A stretch of DNA of 64,000 bases, taken from assembly GCF_001510645.1 (NCBI RefSeq), contig NZ_LMVB01000003.1, positions 310,001 to 374,000 on the forward strand. Direction: 5' to 3'. This document shows, piece after piece, positions 1,527 to 46,510 of this stretch (its first letter is position 1; each line of letters opens with the position of its first letter). Both the position numbers and the translations under genes were made by a program. Below the pieces are notes generated by a model. It saw nothing but the letters and a program-made list of their open reading frames with translations, had not been told where the DNA came from and did no database searches. Source of the DNA: Paenibacillus sp. FJAT-29882 (lineage in GTDB: Bacteria; Bacillota; Bacilli; Bacillales; DSM-1321).

Positions 1527-2852
1527 ATGGATATGAAGCCGGGACTCTATCAACAACAGGTTATGAAATTGACAATGACGCAAGAGTTAAGCCAGGCAAT
1601 TGCATTACTTCAGTTTTCTACGCAAGAATTGTTAGTCTATTTAGAGACAAAGTGGCTGGAAAATCCTTTATTAACGATTGAATCATCAGCAGGTTCCCAC
1701 GAGTTACCAAGAGATCAATTTAAGGGAAATCGGGTAAAGAATACAGGGATATCTTCTAATTGGATTGAACAGATTGGTGATGAAGCTCCTTCTCTTGAAA
1801 AATATTTGCTTGCCCAAATCGGTGTGGATGTGTTAAATAAAATGGAATTGAAAGCGCTTATCCATCTTATTCGTAACATTGATGAAAATGGGTACTTGAG
1901 GATAAGTTTGGAAAATGAAGCTGTTTCGGTTGGTCTATCTGCAAGCGCTGTATTTAAAGCCTTGGATATTCTGCAACAACTCGAACCACACGGGATTGGT
2001 GCCAGAAATCTTCAAGAATGCCTGCTGATTCAAGTCCGTCAAGCTTGCGAAAGACCATTAGCGGAAAAGCTGCTTCGTACATACTTTTTGCCGTTTGTTG
2101 ATAAAAAGTGGAGAGAGCTTACGAAAGAACTTGGAGTTTCTTTAAAAGAGATTCAAGATGAATTTGATTATATACAAACGCTAAACCCACGTCCTGGAGC
2201 CATATTCACTTCTGAGAAGCCAAGCTATATTGTACCTGATGTTGTCGTTGAATATAAAGATGGCAAGTTTTGTGTTGGTCAGTATGAAGGAAATACGCTG
2301 CAACTTCATGTGAATGAATCTTATTTGCAAAAAATGCAGAACCATCATGATCCGAATGTAAATCGCTTTTTACAAGAAAAATGGCAAGAGTATCAATGGC
2401 TGTCTAAAGGAATTCTTCAGCGGAAGGAAACTATATTACAAGTCATGAAAAAGATCGTGGAGAAGCAGCCTGAGTATTTTTTTCGTGGTTTAGGCTTTCT
2501 TAAACCGATGACAATGAAGGAAATTGCCGATGACCTTGAAATCCACGAGTCGACAGTTAGTCGTGTGGTACGTGGCAAGTATGTCCAAACTTCATTTGGA
2601 ACGGTGGAGATGCGGTCTTTCTTTAGCTCAGCTCTGCAATCAACGGAACAAGAAGATGTATCAGGTACAAAGGTGAGAAATGCATTACAGTCAATTATAG
2701 AACTCGAAAATAAACAAAAACCACATTCTGATCAAGAGCTGGCAAAAATTCTTCGAGATGAGCATGGATTCGTTCTTTCACGTAGGACTGTAGCGAAATA
2801 CCGTGAACAACTGGGGATCCCTTCTTCCGTAAAACGAAAAAGATATGAATGA
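1527..2852 (+). CDS. rpoN: RNA polymerase sigma-54 factor
   Basis: This sigma factor (SigL in B. subtilis) directs transcription from -12/-24 promoters and needs an AAA+ activator. The 441-aa protein has the Gln-rich activator-interacting region I at the N-terminus (QQQVMKLTMTQELSQAI), a central core-binding domain, a helix-turn-helix around HESTVSRVVRGKY and a C-terminal RpoN box at SRRTVAKYRE. The frame is open upstream to 1425, but the ATG at 1527 follows a purine-rich site (AAAGGGAGAGGGAG) and begins the conserved region; ATG 1533 is a second option. A glutaredoxin-like gene follows after 16 bp and is probably cotranscribed. Confidence 0.95.
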   Translation: MDMKPGLYQQQVMKLTMTQELSQAIALLQFSTQELLVYLETKWLENPLLTIESSAGSHELPRDQFKGNRVKNTGISSNWIEQIGDEAPSLEKYLLAQIGVDVLNKMELKALIHLIRNIDENGYLRISLENEAVSVGLSASAVFKALDILQQLEPHGIGARNLQECLLIQVRQACERPLAEKLLRTYFLPFVDKKWRELTKELGVSLKEIQDEFDYIQTLNPRPGAIFTSEKPSYIVPDVVVEYKDGKFCVGQYEGNTLQLHVNESYLQKMQNHHDPNVNRFLQEKWQEYQWLSKGILQRKETILQVMKKIVEKQPEYFFRGLGFLKPMTMKEIADDLEIHESTVSRVVRGKYVQTSFGTVEMRSFFSSALQSTEQEDVSGTKVRNALQSIIELENKQKPHSDQELAKILRDEHGFVLSRRTVAKYREQLGIPSSVKRKRYE

Positions 2853-3157: not shown

Positions 3158-3211
3158 CTTTATTCCGTATATCGGGCAGTAAGACCCTTATTGATTGAGG
3201 TTCAACTTTAT
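3158..3211 (+). repeat. Family II minimal element, copy G
   Basis: It reads TTTATTCCGTATATCGGGCAG at the left and ATTGATTGAGGTTCAACTTT at the right, about 54 bp joining the two ends seen in the long copies at 18051 and 23948. It lies 28 bp after the stop of the glutaredoxin-like gene. This is the most diverged copy. Confidence 0.6.
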
Positions 3212-12481: not shown

Positions 12482-12601
12482 AGAATCCCTCATTTCGTTA
12501 GAAGATTGTTTACTTGTCCTTTTCTCCATTCGTTTATTGTAGAGAAGCCGACAATGTGGTAAAGTTAAGGTAATGCTTAATTGTTTCGGGAGGTATAATT
12601 C

Positions 12602-17123: not shown

Positions 17124-17485
17124 GGGGACGCTACGGATTCGACAGGGATAGTTCGAGCTTAGGTTGCGAGTCGAGGGGATCGGCCTCGTTAAAACGTCAA
17201 CGCCTATAACTGGCAAACAAAACAACAACTTCGCTTTCGCTGCTTAATAACAGTCGATAGCGGTTCCTCCCTCCATGGCCCATGTGGTAGGGTAAGGGAC
17301 TCACTCTAAGTGGGCTACGCCGGATTCCACCGTCTGAGGATGAAGGAAGAGACCAATCAGACTAGCTGCTCTGCCGCCTGTCGATAGGCAAATGAGTAAG
17401 CGAAACAATAATATGTCGACTACACTCGTAGAAGCTTAAGTGCCGTTATGTCTGGACGTGGGTTCGATTCCCACCGTCTCCACCA
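17124..17485 (+). ncRNA. ssrA: Transfer-messenger RNA (tmRNA)
   Basis: tmRNA rescues stalled ribosomes and appends a degradation tag. The 5' GGGGACGCTACGGATTCGAC pairs with the 3' CGTCTCC, which is followed by an encoded CCA; the T arm GGTTCGATTCCC is typical. The resume codon GGC at 17212 opens the reading frame GKQNNNFAFAA, ending in tandem TAA stops, so the peptide is (A)GKQNNNFAFAA with the usual hydrophobic AA end recognised by ClpXP. Pseudoknot stems are visible, including GGCGTAGCC-like and TAAGTGGGC segments. ssrA is a common site for island insertion, and the accessory region begins just after it, but I found no duplicated 3' end and no integrase. Confidence 0.96.
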
Positions 17486-17521
17486 AATACATATTGTTGG
17501 TGGCTAAATACGAATTGATAC

Positions 17522-17555
17522 ACGGACTTGCCGATTATGGCAAGTCCGTTTTTAT
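17522..17555 (+). terminator. ssrA terminator
   Basis: A perfect 11-bp stem, ACGGACTTGCC / GGCAAGTCCGT, followed by TTTTT. Confidence 0.9.
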
Positions 17556-17712
17556 CGTGAAGCTGTAGGTAATTTTTCTAAAAAGTTATAGATGCAACTC
17601 TGGGACTTATCTAACAATGATTTGAATACATGTAAAGATACTTAAAACGTTAGATATGTAGTATTAACTTTCTTGACTTTGTTAAAGATAACAAAGGAGG
17701 GGGTGTGATACC

Positions 17713-17868
17713 ATGGCTCAAGATGTTCTATGTGAGGTAAATAACTGTCAGTATTGGAGTTCTGGAAACCACTGTCAAGCAGAATCTATTTACGTAGTAA
17801 GTAATAAGGGCAAACACGCATCCAATAGTGAAGAAACGGATTGCAAAACATTTGTACCTGAAGTTTAA
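17713..17868 (+). CDS. DUF1540 small cysteine-rich protein, copy 1
   Basis: This 51-aa protein has the DUF1540 pattern: two N-terminal Cys (LCEVNNCQYW), a third in HCQAES and a fourth in TDCKTF, spaced to bind one metal ion. Function of the family is unknown; zinc binding and a link to sporulation have been suggested. GGAGGGGGTGTG gives a strong ribosome site. The copy at 21412 encodes an identical protein, with a synonymous change only, so the duplication is recent or under selection. Confidence 0.8.
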   Translation: MAQDVLCEVNNCQYWSSGNHCQAESIYVVSNKGKHASNSEETDCKTFVPEV

Positions 17869-17998
17869 GTAAAGATTGAGGGGATGTCCAATGGGTCTAG
17901 CCGAGCACATAACAAACAGTTTATCCACTACAGTGTAAATTGTTTGTCGTAGTTGTGGGGTTGATCTATCTAGGACATCCTTTTCCTATTTATAGTAT

Positions 17999-18013
17999 TG
18001 ATAATAACTATCA
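17999..18013. promoter_or_regulatory. Fur-like box without an obvious target, copy 1
   Basis: TGATAATAACTATCA matches the 7-1-7 Fur consensus TGATAATNATTATCA at all but one arm position. It lies 130 bp after the DUF1540 stop, and no iron-uptake gene follows, so it looks like an operator cut off from its gene. Confidence 0.55.
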
Positions 18014-18050
18014 TTTTCATTCAGACTAATGGAAATTATTTTTAAAAGGC

Positions 18051-18559
18051 TTTATCCCGTATTAACGGAAAGTCAAGACCCCACTTCAAGGCTTAGAGGA
18101 ATTGAAGAAGCGTTAGGACAACTGCCCGTAATCTAGTTGCGGCTCCTAGCCCGTCTGAGGTCATAAGCTGTAATACTCTGTGGCAAACTACGCCACAGAG
18201 TATTACAGCTTATGCTTGTCGGACTACCACAGGATGTGATGGCGTCTCTGTTGCTCACAGGACGTGATCGATCTTAGGAGACGTTCCTTGTACCAGTCGC
18301 CTTGCTTTTTAATGTAAAAGCCCGATTGGTGAGATACAGTGAAACTTACCGAGAGTTGCGCAGAGGTTTAGTTGAGGCCCACAGGATGTGGGTCACACAA
18401 ACATTGCCGCAGGACGCGGCGCACTTAGTCTGTGATTCATTGATTCGGGTTCGTACTGTCGATTGATCGAAGCTGTCGCTGCGATCTTAGCGACAGTAGA
18501 ACGGGATTAACAATCAGTAGGGGATGAAGAAACCCCCACTGATTGAAGTTTCACTTTAT
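18051..18559 (+). repeat. Family II long element, copy A (about 509 bp, structured)
   Basis: The left end is TTTATCCCGTATTAACGG and the right end is CACTGATTGAAGTTTCACTT plus TAT. Inside are a perfect 23-bp hairpin (18162-18184 with 18192-18214), four small hairpins with loops AGGAT or AGGAC in CACAGGATGTG-type contexts (18228-18238, 18255-18267, 18378-18392, 18406-18420), a GTCTC/GAGAC closing stem, a stem ACTGTCG...CGACAGT, a long-range TTAGTC/GATTAA pair, and a terminal hairpin of the AATCAGT / ACTGATT type. Copies B and C keep the same stems. No coding capacity is seen. It ends 6 bp from the 3' end of yfmQ. Confidence 0.8.
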
Positions 18560-18564
18560 TACAT

Positions 18565-19008
18565 TTATGCTAATCCCTTAGTTGACATAGTAAATGTTTG
18601 TAGATTATCAGAACTAAGACTATAAGAAACAACTTTCTCTTTGTACTGCTTGACTACATCAACGTGATTATCGTAATTATAAACAAAGAAATTAACATCT
18701 TTTTTGCCTTTTTTTACGTTGATGACAAATGGAGTAACATTAGTCTCTGGATGTAAAAATAATTTTTCATTGCCTGGAAATATATAATATTTTTTTAAAA
18801 AGTTAGCTTCATTAAAATAGTCAGTAAATCTAACTTTTTCTTCCTCTTTTAAATTCTTTCCGTTAAATGTTACAGTAACCTCTTTTGAATCAAGTTTTGG
18901 ATGAAGTTCAAATTTACCTATGACCCATCCCACCATTGCACTTGGAGGACTAAGTAAAAATTTGAGAATAAATCCAATTACTAAACTAATAACAACAGTC
19001 CATGTCAT
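18565..19008 (-). CDS. yfmQ: YfmQ family protein
   Basis: This 147-aa protein has one N-terminal membrane segment (TVVISLVIGFILKFLLS) and a soluble domain with VTVTFNGKNL, FTDYFNEANFL and LHPETNVTPFVINVKKGKKD. It resembles B. subtilis YfmQ over its length from memory; function unknown. A good ribosome site (AAAGGAG) precedes the ATG. Its 3' end abuts family II copy A, whose right-end hairpin may serve as terminator. Confidence 0.75.
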   Translation of the reverse strand: MTWTVVISLVIGFILKFLLSPPSAMVGWVIGKFELHPKLDSKEVTVTFNGKNLKEEEKVRFTDYFNEANFLKKYYIFPGNEKLFLHPETNVTPFVINVKKGKKDVNFFVYNYDNHVDVVKQYKEKVVSYSLSSDNLQTFTMSTKGLA

Positions 19009-19375
19009 ATTATATTAACTCCTTTTTTAGTTCCAGTGAAAATGAAATCGTTTTGATCGTTTAACTGATTCACTATTATTGATTTTTATAATAAAGACAC
19101 CAATTTTAAAATGCAATTAAATATGAGATGTGTCACTAATTGTTCAAATAAGAAAAACTTTTTTTAACCGGATATTTAGCTGTTTAATCGGGTTCTAAAA
19201 TCTTTAAATAACTTGATATATGGGCTTTTATTAATAGCTAAAGATGAAGGGAAATGGTGTAAACAATCAAGTGGATGGTAAAATTCATTGAAAAGTGGAT
19301 GGGTACAAGTGTTGCCAATTATTTTATAGTGATAAATTAGATGAAATATTATATATGGGCATTTTGATAGAACTT
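19009..19375. other. Intergenic stretch, AT-rich
   Basis: About 370 bp upstream of yfmQ with no convincing gene, RNA or hairpin. It should hold the yfmQ promoter near its start; no clear -35/-10 pair was identified. Confidence 0.4.
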
Positions 19376-19429
19376 TTTATCCCGCTTTAACGGGCAGTAA
19401 AACCCCCACTGATTGAAGTTTCACTTTAT
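19376..19429 (+). repeat. Family II minimal element, copy D
   Basis: 54 bp with a left end TTTATCCCGCTTTAACGGGC (small CCCG/CGGG hairpin) fused at ACCCCCACTGATT to the right end, as though the interior of a long copy were deleted between short matching CCCC-ACT sequences. It is the cleanest minimal form in the window. Confidence 0.8.
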
Positions 19430-21312: not shown

Positions 21313-21411
21313 TAGGAGTAAATTGGATGGGCGATCTTCCAAAATGAGTTTACGCAATAGTATTAACTTTCTCGATTTTGTTAAAGATAACAAAGGAGGG
21401 GGTGTGATACC

Positions 21412-21567
21412 ATGGCTCAAGATGTTCTATGTGAGGTAAATAACTGTCAGTATTGGAGTTCTGGAAACCATTGTCAAGCAGAATCTATTTACGTAGTAAG
21501 TAATAAGGGCAAACACGCATCCAATAGTGAAGAAACGGATTGCAAAACATTTGTACCTGAAGTTTAA
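21412..21567 (+). CDS. DUF1540 small cysteine-rich protein, copy 2
   Basis: Encodes the same 51 residues as the gene at 17713, differing by a synonymous CAC to CAT change, with the same GGAGGGGGTGTG ribosome site. The four Cys suggest a metal site. It lies about 760 bp upstream of the manganese transporter, with no sign of cotranscription. Confidence 0.8.
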   Translation: MAQDVLCEVNNCQYWSSGNHCQAESIYVVSNKGKHASNSEETDCKTFVPEV

Positions 21568-21697
21568 GTAAAGATCGAGGGGATGTCCAATGGGTCTAGC
21601 CGAGCACACAACAAACAGTTTATCCACTACAGTGTAAATTGTTTGTCGTAGTTGTGGGGTTGATCTATCTAGGACATCCTTTTCCTATTTATAGTAT

Positions 21698-23947: not shown

Positions 23948-24308
23948 ATAAAGTGAAACTTCAATCAGTGGGGCTCATCCCCACTGATTGTTAGTCCCGT
24001 TTTACTGTCGCTAAGATCGCAGCAAACGCTTCGATCAATCGACAGTACGAACCCGATTCAATGAATCACAGACTAAGTACGCCGCGTCCTCATGTCTTCG
24101 TCTGTGTGACCCACATCCTGTGGGCCTCAACTAAACCGCTGAAAATCACAGCGGTAAGTTTCACTGTATCTCACTAATCGTGCTTTTACTTCAAAAAGTG
24201 AGGCGACTGCCCAGCCGCAACTAGATTGGGCAAGGTATCCCCATCTCCGCTTCTTCGATTCCTCTAAGCCCTGAAATGGGGTCTTACTGTCCGTTAATGC
24301 GGAATAAA
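23948..24308 (-). repeat. Family II long element, copy B (361 bp)
   Basis: Inverted relative to copy A and lacking A's 23-bp hairpin and first two AGGA loops. It keeps the CCCAC-AGGAT-GTGGG hairpin, ACCGCTG/CAGCGGT, ACTGTCG/CGACAGT, TTAGTC/GACTAA and the end hairpin (CAATCAGTGGGG / CCCCACTGATTG). It lies inside the mntB-mntC-mntA unit, so it would be transcribed as part of that mRNA. Confidence 0.8.
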
Positions 24309-34868: not shown

Positions 34869-36450
34869 AGCAGTCCTTATATCAACATTTGTATCAAGTA
34901 TGCTGTTATTAGCAGGATGTGTTGGGGACAAATCGGCAGAAAAATCTACAGATAAATCTCATCAAGCAACCAATCAGCTCGTCTATGGAATAGAGGCGGA
35001 AATCGAACAAGTAAATCCAGTACTAAATGAAGAAGAACATAGTGAGCTTGATAGCTTGATATTCCGGGGCCTCACTAAACCGACAGAGAAAAATGAAATT
35101 GTCGCTGACTTGGCAACAGATTGGAAGATCTCTCCCGATCAGCTGACGTATACATTTACTCTTCGTGATGATGCAAAATGGCAAGATGGAAAGCCGGTCA
35201 CAGCTGAGGACGTGAAGTTCACATTAGATAAGATAAGGGATCCTAAGACAAATTCGCCGATTTCTGGTGACTTCAATGAAATCAAGGAAGTTAACGTCCT
35301 TAAAGAAAATCAAGTGCAAATTACCTTAAGCAATCCGTTCCCGCCTTTGCTTGACAAGCTGAAGGTCGGTATTGTACCAAAACATATATTGCAAGATGAA
35401 GATATTAACACAACGGATTTTAACCAAAATCCAGTTGGGAACGGCCCTTTTAAATTGAAAGAGTGGGCAAATGATCATACGATTACGGTCGAGCGCAGCG
35501 AAACGTATTATGGCGTGAAACCAAAACTTGATGAAGTCGTCTTTAAACCAATACCGGACGCTAATACACGTGCCTTACAATTAAAGACTGGAGAAATAGA
35601 TCTTGCTCTCATGGAACCTAATCAACTTGCAAGTGTAAAAGAAAACGATGATTTTACTGTAAAGACGATTTCAACAGCGGATTACAGGGCCGTCATGTAT
35701 AATTTCCGAAATCCTTTATTCAAGGATGCAAGGATTCGCCAAGCGATGAATTTAGGGATTGACCGTGAGGCAATTGTAAGTGGTATGCTAGCTAATAAAG
35801 GAGAGCCAGCATACGGTCCACTACAGAAATCATGGGCTAATGCACCACAAAAAGACATGTACACCTATCAACCTGAAAAAGCAAATCAATTACTAGAAGA
35901 AGCAGGCTGGAAAAAAGGGAGCGACGGTGTCCGTGTTAAAGATGGCAAAAGATTGGAGTTTGATCTTGTTTCACCGATCAGTGATCCTGTTCGAGTTGCA
36001 CTTGCTAATGTTGTAGCAGAGCAATTGAAGCCGCTCGGGGTTTCCGTTATTTTAAAACCATTAGACTGGTCAGCGATAAAACTGGATGAAGTAGATGCCT
36101 TTGTAATTGGTTGGGGCAGTCCATTTGATCCTGATGATCACACATACCGTATTTTCCACAGCAGCCAAATTGGTGATGGTCTTAATAATTTGACTGCTTA
36201 CAAAAATTCAAAAGTTGATCAGCTATTAACAGATGCGCGGATCAATCCGGATAAAGAGAAGCGAATACAATTTTATGAGCAGTTCCAAAAGGAATTAGCA
36301 ATAGATCCGGCCTTTAACTTTCTTGTTTATTTAGATGCGTTATATGGTGTAAATAAACAAGTGAGTGGCATTACCACCCGTACATTAGGACATCATGGTT
36401 CTGGAGTGCTATGGAATATTGAAGAATGGGATAAAGTGAAACTTCCATGA
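34849..36450 (+). CDS. nikA: Nickel-binding lipoprotein NikA
   Basis: A family 5 solute-binding lipoprotein of 533 aa with lipobox LLLAGC and the SBP-5 pattern (RGLTKPTEKNE, YTFTLRDDAKWQDGKPVTAEDV, GNGPFKLKEW). It captures free nickel or a nickel chelate outside the membrane. ATG 34849 is about 8 bp after GGAGG; ATG 34843 is too close. The last codons (DKVKLP) and TGA come from the end of a family II repeat that starts at 36431, so the native C-terminus has been replaced. Confidence 0.85.
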   Translation: MPFKKTKAVLISTFVSSMLLLAGCVGDKSAEKSTDKSHQATNQLVYGIEAEIEQVNPVLNEEEHSELDSLIFRGLTKPTEKNEIVADLATDWKISPDQLTYTFTLRDDAKWQDGKPVTAEDVKFTLDKIRDPKTNSPISGDFNEIKEVNVLKENQVQITLSNPFPPLLDKLKVGIVPKHILQDEDINTTDFNQNPVGNGPFKLKEWANDHTITVERSETYYGVKPKLDEVVFKPIPDANTRALQLKTGEIDLALMEPNQLASVKENDDFTVKTISTADYRAVMYNFRNPLFKDARIRQAMNLGIDREAIVSGMLANKGEPAYGPLQKSWANAPQKDMYTYQPEKANQLLEEAGWKKGSDGVRVKDGKRLEFDLVSPISDPVRVALANVVAEQLKPLGVSVILKPLDWSAIKLDEVDAFVIGWGSPFDPDDHTYRIFHSSQIGDGLNNLTAYKNSKVDQLLTDARINPDKEKRIQFYEQFQKELAIDPAFNFLVYLDALYGVNKQVSGITTRTLGHHGSGVLWNIEEWDKVKLP

Positions 36451-36694
36451 TTAGGGGGGAGCTTTTATCCCCCAATCATAGGTAGTCCCGTTCTACTGTC
36501 GCTGAGATCGCAGCAAACGCTTCGATCAATCGACAGTATGAAATGAATCACAGACTAAGTACGTGTGGGCCTCAACTAAACCGCTGAAGAGCAGCGTTAA
36601 GTTTCACTGTATATCACCAAACGGGCCTTTTTATCCTTCTTCGAATCTGCTAAGCGTGTTCAAGGGGGCTTACTACCCGTTAATCTGCGATAAA
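36431..36694 (-). repeat. Family II long element, copy C (264 bp, internally deleted)
   Basis: On the minus strand it runs from TTTATCGCAGATTAACGGG to GAAGTTTCACTTTAT. It keeps the CGCTG/CAGCG, ACTGTCGATTGATCG / CGATC...CGACAGT and GGGGGAG...CTCCCCC-type hairpins but lost the AGGA-loop hairpins by a deletion between CCCAC and GTACTTAG. Its outer end encodes the C-terminus and stop of nikA. nikR starts 19 bp beyond it. Confidence 0.8.
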
Positions 36695-36712
36695 CAATAG
36701 GGGGAAGATGCA

Positions 36713-46456: not shown

Positions 46457-46510
46457 AATATCCCGATTCAACGGGCAGTAAAACTTCCACTGATTGAAGT
46501 TTCACTTTAT
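46457..46510 (+). repeat. Family II minimal element, copy E
   Basis: TATCCCGATTCAACGGGCAG joined to CACTGATTGAAGTTTCACTT, 54 bp, starting 16 bp after the stop of the ABM-like gene. Nearly identical in layout to copy D. Confidence 0.75.

Follow-up and report, generated by a model that had tools for sequence, protein, structure and literature searches.

The question raised by positions 18051 to 18559 of the window (the whole stretch of 64,000 nucleotides that was analysed) is what a 509-bp element with CsrB-like hairpin loops represents, a sequence-only reading having taken it for one structured element that could titrate CsrA if transcribed, or whose GGA loops may serve another protein. The best explanation is that the element, referred to as copy A, belongs to the long versions of a mobile and modular repeat, intergenic and non-coding, and has two Bacillaceae-1 modules, and that its loops are recognised by a trans-acting factor which is not necessarily CsrA. 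Taken as a whole, we consider this explanation probable. The features are listed in Table 1.

Table 1 Positions of the element, its modules and hairpins, and related copies in the window
Feature	Position	Strand	Remarks
Whole element, copy A (509 bp)	18051-18559	+ (AGGA-loop strand; RF01690 on -)	ends TTTATCCCG... and ...CACTTTAT
Left end module	18051-18131		its outer portion also serves as one half of the short form (51-55 bp)
Optional long-hairpin module	18129-18222		self-complementary arms within 18162-18214; absent in several copies
Bacillaceae-1 motif no. 1 (RF01690)	18226-18293	-	54.7 bits; holds AGGA hairpins 1 and 2
AGGA hairpin 1	18228-18238	+	CACAGGATGTG; 3 Watson-Crick pairs only
AGGA hairpin 2	18255-18267	+	TCACAGGACGTGA
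Module separating the two Bacillaceae-1 motifs	18294-18375		genome-copy matches and alignment
Bacillaceae-1 motif no. 2 (RF01690)	18378-18444	-	71.8 bits; holds AGGA hairpins 3 and 4
AGGA hairpin 3	18378-18392	+	CCCACAGGATGTGGG; 5-bp Watson-Crick stem
AGGA hairpin 4	18406-18420	+	GCCGCAGGACGCGGC; 5-bp Watson-Crick stem
Right end module	18445-18559		subterminal hairpin, 10-nt linker, TTTAT
Copy B	23948-24308	- (GGA strand)	flanked by genes for an ABC-3 permease and a ZnuA-type protein; site unoccupied in two relatives
Bacillaceae-1 motif in copy B (RF01690)	24057-24124	+	44.7 bits
Copy C, without AGGA hairpin	36431-36694	-	sequence match
Short form, two ends only	19376-19429	+	sequence match
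Short form	46459-46510	+	sequence match
Short form, diverged	3160-3211	+	sequence match

Hairpins of copy A and the Bacillaceae-1 motif

All four AGGAU or AGGAC hairpins described by the sequence-only reading were found, three of them having 4 or more base pairs in the stem and the last two with the perfect 5-bp Watson-Crick stems claimed for them, and the borders given for the element proved exact, with TTTAT at each end. Hairpins with an AGGAN loop and at least four Watson-Crick pairs were counted in each copy and in 2000 shuffles per copy. Copy A contained three (shuffle mean 0.009; three or more in 0 of 2000 shuffles), copy B contained one, a number reached by 22 of 2000 shuffles, and copy C, for which the span 36434-36702 was used and its true ends thereby missed by a few bases, contained none. 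AGGA loops are in excess over shuffled sequence in copy A, and the claim that only copy A has all four hairpins, copy B one and copy C none is correct in substance. The loops also match the CsrB repeat CAGGA(U/A/C)G as defined in PMC7652899, which bears out the likeness that had been noticed.

An Rfam scan placed two motifs of the family RF01690 (Bacillaceae-1) on the minus strand of copy A, both over the full model (1-67) and above the cut-off of 35 bits, so that by covariance score they belong to the family. The four AGGA hairpins are arranged pairwise, one pair per motif. The RF01690 model has two hairpins with the loops GUCCU and AUCCU, which read AGGAC and AGGAU on the opposite strand, and the CsrB-like loops are therefore Bacillaceae-1 seen from the other side. 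The Rfam search, suggested as a check on the CsrB likeness, returned this family and not CsrB: between 18000 and 24500 of the window there was no RF00018 (CsrB) match at E values up to 1, and RF00166 (PrrB_RsmZ) reached 18.5 bits on the plus strand, below its cut-off of 44. In the host genome, RF01690 has 45 matches, 44 of them above cut-off.

Bacillaceae-1 was described in 2010 (PMC2864571) by authors who, according to PMC4333381, were unsure of its strand. Gardner and Eldai (2014; PMC4333381) pointed out that its reverse complement matches the CsrA-binding motif and proposed CsrA-binding RNAs in Bacillales; the idea that the strand with the AGGA loops (the GGA strand) binds CsrA is already in print. 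Eight Bacillaceae-1 structures of Bacillus subtilis, absent from earlier resources, are recorded in BSGatlas (PMC8208703). A literature search by motif name and accession brought up, in the text that it covered, no experiment on the function of Bacillaceae-1 and no follow-up of the CsrA proposal. Rfam treats the motif as an sRNA gene on the strand opposite the AGGA loops, whereas here it is a detachable module found in both orientations. The present data depict Bacillaceae-1 as a module that belongs to mobile repeats and to rRNA spacers and has a strand preference.

A modular repeat inserted at TTTAT

Copy A matches 90 pieces of the 5.3-Mb host genome, itself and its hairpin arms included, and its last 26 nt occur there in 221 copies with at most 3 mismatches, compared with 0 for the reversed control. 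The retrieved loci contained 49 different elements that are complete, with lengths from 51 to 520 bp. In an alignment of 11 copies, the short form consists of the two ends alone and the longer forms gain further modules at precise boundaries, the two Bacillaceae-1 motifs being among the optional ones. Motif no. 1 is missing between matching flanks in C15:290013 and C1:1594873, and motif no. 2 in C15:290013, C12:105729, C1:393343, C1:989140 and the copy near C12:631532; in the long-hairpin module copy A matches itself on the other strand (query 112-164). With many copies, common ends and optional inner modules, the element belongs with the BOX-like mobile intergenic repeats. The claim of one structured RNA element gives way to that of a copy of a mobile modular repeat, on account of the 221 right ends, the empty sites described below and the optional modules, and a single CsrB-like gene is ruled against by copy number and mobility. 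Four elements of about 150 bp each lie head to tail in L116 (2148-2752), with ATAAA common at the joints.

The host genome was judged Peribacillus-like, going by one window protein with its best relatives in P. loiseleuriae (95 %) and P. huizhouensis (89 %). Copy B, which separates the gene of an ABC-3 permease (PF00950) from that of a ZnuA-type protein (PF01297), is absent from the same place in both of these species, their flanks aligning without the element, and in the reciprocal case, near window position 12520, an element is present in P. loiseleuriae and none in the host genome. Precise insertion was seen in these two cases, and for copy A at its left junction alone, which lies on a TTTAT that is also present, element-free, in a second DUF1540 locus of the window and in P. 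loiseleuriae; on the right side, the sequence next to copy A differs from the empty site expected there and seems rearranged. From the empty sites of copy B, the TTTAT junctions and the reciprocal case it follows that the repeat is mobile and has TTTAT (ATAAA on the other strand) as its target.

The two DUF1540 loci are 300-bp units with a DUF1540 gene (PF07561), at 17659-17958 and 21358-21657, with 98 % identity. Behind the second unit stands TTTAT and no element, and behind the first stand copy A and a different right flank. A phage or plasmid origin of copy A was considered and set aside, there being no phage match and one plasmid record with an 11 % match; on the 190-bp repeat of B. subtilis, considered as a relative, a literature search brought nothing, and it was dropped.

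The element would move in trans, a candidate source of the activity being an enzyme encoded elsewhere. Elements of the IS200/IS605 type have no terminal inverted repeats, a fixed target beside their ends and hairpins inside the ends. The ends of the element and TTTAT fit these features, and the lack of inverted repeats at the ends, the TTTAT found to the left and right and the hairpins close within suggest an IS200/IS605-like transposition of a single strand, probably through the hairpins. The repeat is also modular and interspersed like BOX of Streptococcus pneumoniae and S. suis, to which it is likened by description; BOX measures 67-637 bp in pneumococcus, combines in S. suis one inner module, boxB, with end modules that differ, and is said to have terminal inverted repeats that resemble ISSpn2 (PMC3049150). 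Unlike BOX, copy A has no terminal inverted repeats that could be found by eye. The bcr1 repeat of the Bacillus cereus group is likewise non-coding and is described as having characteristics of a mobile element (PMC2267715, PMC3733652); compared by description, bcr1 is given as 147 or 167 bp long, and the present element varies with its modules.

Strand preference and the link to csrA

Pairing on the two strands was compared in 206 unique motifs from 53 genomes, with loops required to match in four of five letters and at least 11 of 17 pairs to be Watson-Crick (one earlier extraction kept 78 of 129 unique motifs). On the Rfam strand, 68 A-C and 20 G-U combinations were found among 3502 pairs (p 3e-7). 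Since an A-C on one strand is a G-U on the other, the asymmetry favours the GGA strand. It was 51 vs 17 when counted once per genome, position and type (p 4e-5), 42 vs 19 without the two outer pairs (p 0.004), and 24 vs 15 when counted once per family, position and type (p 0.20); the detection bias of the Rfam model works against it. By this asymmetry one strand matters more, as would not be expected of a plain double-stranded DNA signal; the asymmetry fits RNA or a single DNA strand. G-U pairs make up about 1.9 % on the GGA strand and about 0.6 % on the Rfam strand, compared with 6.4 % in 49 tRNAs of the same loci, and this low share, taken from two detections that differ in bias, leans towards DNA or strict pairing but is not decisive. 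No clear replication-linked bias behind the asymmetry was seen by eye among the 19 G441 matches listed, with base 1 taken as the origin.

Single motifs fold more stably on the GGA strand in 185 of 206 cases, partly owing to the fixed loop letters. When whole elements are folded, the GGA strand is favoured in 23 of 27 that exceed 200 bp, and the other strand in 12 of 14 of 70-200 bp and in 8 of 8 short forms. An average difference of 10 kcal is already seen for random stretches of 300 nt, and the outcome varies with element size, so that the whole element gives no single answer as to strand.

A csrA gene, without which titration of CsrA could not take place, lies at C15:222914-223072 of the host genome. 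In the class sample, csrA is present in 82 of 85 genomes with RF01690 and in 235 of 398 overall (p 3e-18 with kinship ignored; the 82 of 85 is a hand tally from listed entries, as are the 6 of 16, the loop counts of 56 of 80 and 33 of 66 and the 14 genomes below). Within family f18, RF01690 was found in 106 of 135 genomes with csrA and in 6 of 16 without it (p 0.001), and when genus g97, to which 8 of these 16 belong, was left out, the counts were 106 of 135 and 5 of 8 (p 0.38). The dependence on csrA that a CsrB or Rsm RNA would show is at odds with those six genomes. Elsewhere, G013 of family f1 lacks csrA and has 2 matches, and in genus g123 the csrA-less G486 has 20 (best 81.4 bits) and the csrA-less G493 has 66, 64 of them above cut-off (best 80.3 bits). 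The csrA-positive members of this genus have at least 22 (G312 and G348), 23 (G461), 11 (G470) and 27 (G478), and G500 has csrA and no match. G493 contains sets of near-identical motif copies, which suggests that the module has multiplied without csrA unless the gene was lost very lately. Genomes of this kind make the CsrA proposal for Bacillaceae-1 directly testable.

A scan of 245 motifs without the loop requirement gave AGGA in 374 of 490 loops and ACGA, which lacks GGA, in 63. The two tallies were equal in 14 csrA-positive genomes, mostly sampled with one or two motifs each. In f18, AGGA accounted for 56 of 80 loops in genomes that have csrA and for 33 of 66 in those that lack it (p 0.017), which counts in favour of CsrA, the csrA-less sample including lower-scoring copies and stemming mostly from two genomes of one genus; for AGGA and ACGA alone, the ratios were 56:22 and 33:19 (p 0.34).

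There was no promoter excess around copy A (5 sites in 17480-19020, shuffle mean 4.9), and one weak terminator-like site within it lies on the other strand. Gene orientation showed no bias among 45 sites of the host genome (opposite/opposite 15, same/opposite 13, same/same 9, opposite/same 8; same/same against opposite/opposite p 0.31), as counted with a home-made ORF finder for at least 70 amino acids that overlooked the tmRNA and, next to copy A, the DUF1540 gene of 51 aa, and with two motifs in one element entered as two rows. Orientation without a pattern also disposes of a cis-regulatory element of neighbouring genes.

Genomic settings of the module and rival explanations

Of 42 genomes of the family, 25 have RF01690, with 0-90 matches per genome (a range also found inside one genus); in f18 the share is 112 of 151 genomes, and in the class sample 85 of 398. 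Copy numbers from searches of more than 40 genomes are lower bounds, since few candidates per genome are scored (12 in the class sample, 31 in f18). When 140 sites of gap-free motifs were sorted by flank, with a motif sequence common to several genomes credited to one and rRNA patterns sought in one orientation, 26 were of type 1 (5 of them also with a reversed type 3 pattern), 57 of type 2, 11 of type 3 with both orientations counted, 7 at 16S, 1 at 5S, 6 mixed or reversed and 32 without a class, the last including the sites in G199 and G273 where the motif is inverted relative to 16S. The module is shared by at least two other carrier repeats and the rRNA leaders and spacers of other Bacillales, beside rRNA genes in both orientations. 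Its stem changes are compensated across the 53 genomes and its loops mostly stay A(G/C)GAY, in loci fetched by RF01690 scores that favour consensus loops.

In genus g5 the motif sits immediately against the 5' end of 16S, with the Rfam strand as the rRNA strand in G362, G054 and G433 and in the opposite orientation in G199 and G273, and either strand can thus be sense in rRNA leaders. In G228 (L275 2002-2069) it lies directly ahead of a 5S between 16S and 23S; in G335 5S and tRNA lie upstream of it, and in G406 SRP RNA does.

These settings bear on the reading of the motif as an RNA-processing or stability module, in which the paired hairpins would be RNase or protector sites in pre-rRNA and at mRNA ends in either orientation. 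The motifs at the start of 16S, including a cut-off 16S in G433, and those beside 5S, tRNA and SRP RNA agree with it, as does copy B between two genes of one transporter, but the sites of the host genome are intergenic with no orientation preference, and the conserved unpaired letters are asymmetric, so that the two orientations give different RNAs; we regard this reading as unlikely. Similarly improbable is a dispersed CsrA sponge, in which GGA-strand transcripts from many copies would titrate CsrA through paired AGGA hairpins as E. coli CsrB does. Its case consists of the CAGGA(U/A/C)G loops, the csrA gene, the wobble and folding preference for the GGA strand, the co-occurrence with csrA and the higher AGGA share in f18 genomes that have it, and copy A does share with CsrB/CsrC and RsmX/Y/Z several CAGGA(U/C)G loops in pairs. 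It departs from these RNAs in its lack of promoter excess, its mobility, its 221 right ends and its persistence without csrA. The matches in csrA-less G486 and G493, the loss of significance without g97, the equal AGGA and ACGA tallies, the absence of an orientation bias and the presence of the other strand in sense before 16S in G362, G054 and G433 also argue against a sponge. The majority of CsrA ligands in SELEX have hexaloops and no more than 4 pairs (PMC7652899), whereas the Bacillaceae-1 hairpins have pentaloops and 5-bp stems. The proposed titration of CsrA is left as a doubtful prospect, for those copies whose GGA strand is transcribed.

A further reading, to which we also give little credence, is that the mobile element spreads, shuffles and multiplies the hairpin pair as a dispersed CsrA decoy, with another loop-binding protein in lineages without csrA; the sponge dose would then change by transposition and not by a promoter. 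Against the preferred explanation, a mobile repeat with loops recognised in trans, we count the 68:20 asymmetry, the strong co-occurrence of RF01690 with csrA and the mismatch at the right flank of copy A. Under the mobile-repeat explanation the paired loops would be recognised by a factor that acts in trans, either in a DNA hairpin or in read-through RNA. The factor need not be CsrA, or not CsrA alone, and binding of CsrA may be a side effect wherever transcription happens to include the GGA strand.

Some further arrangements were seen beside the motif. The pre-16S motif has opposite orientations between species of one genus (L265 1474-1540, L219 1501-1567, L224 381-447). In G433 (L262 about 1985-2060, minus strand), the 16S gene is cut off soon past its start, with a complete rRNA leader and Bacillaceae-1 ahead of it. 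In G166 (L231 from 1501 on), repeated TCCT hairpins follow the motif, apparently as a tandem array.
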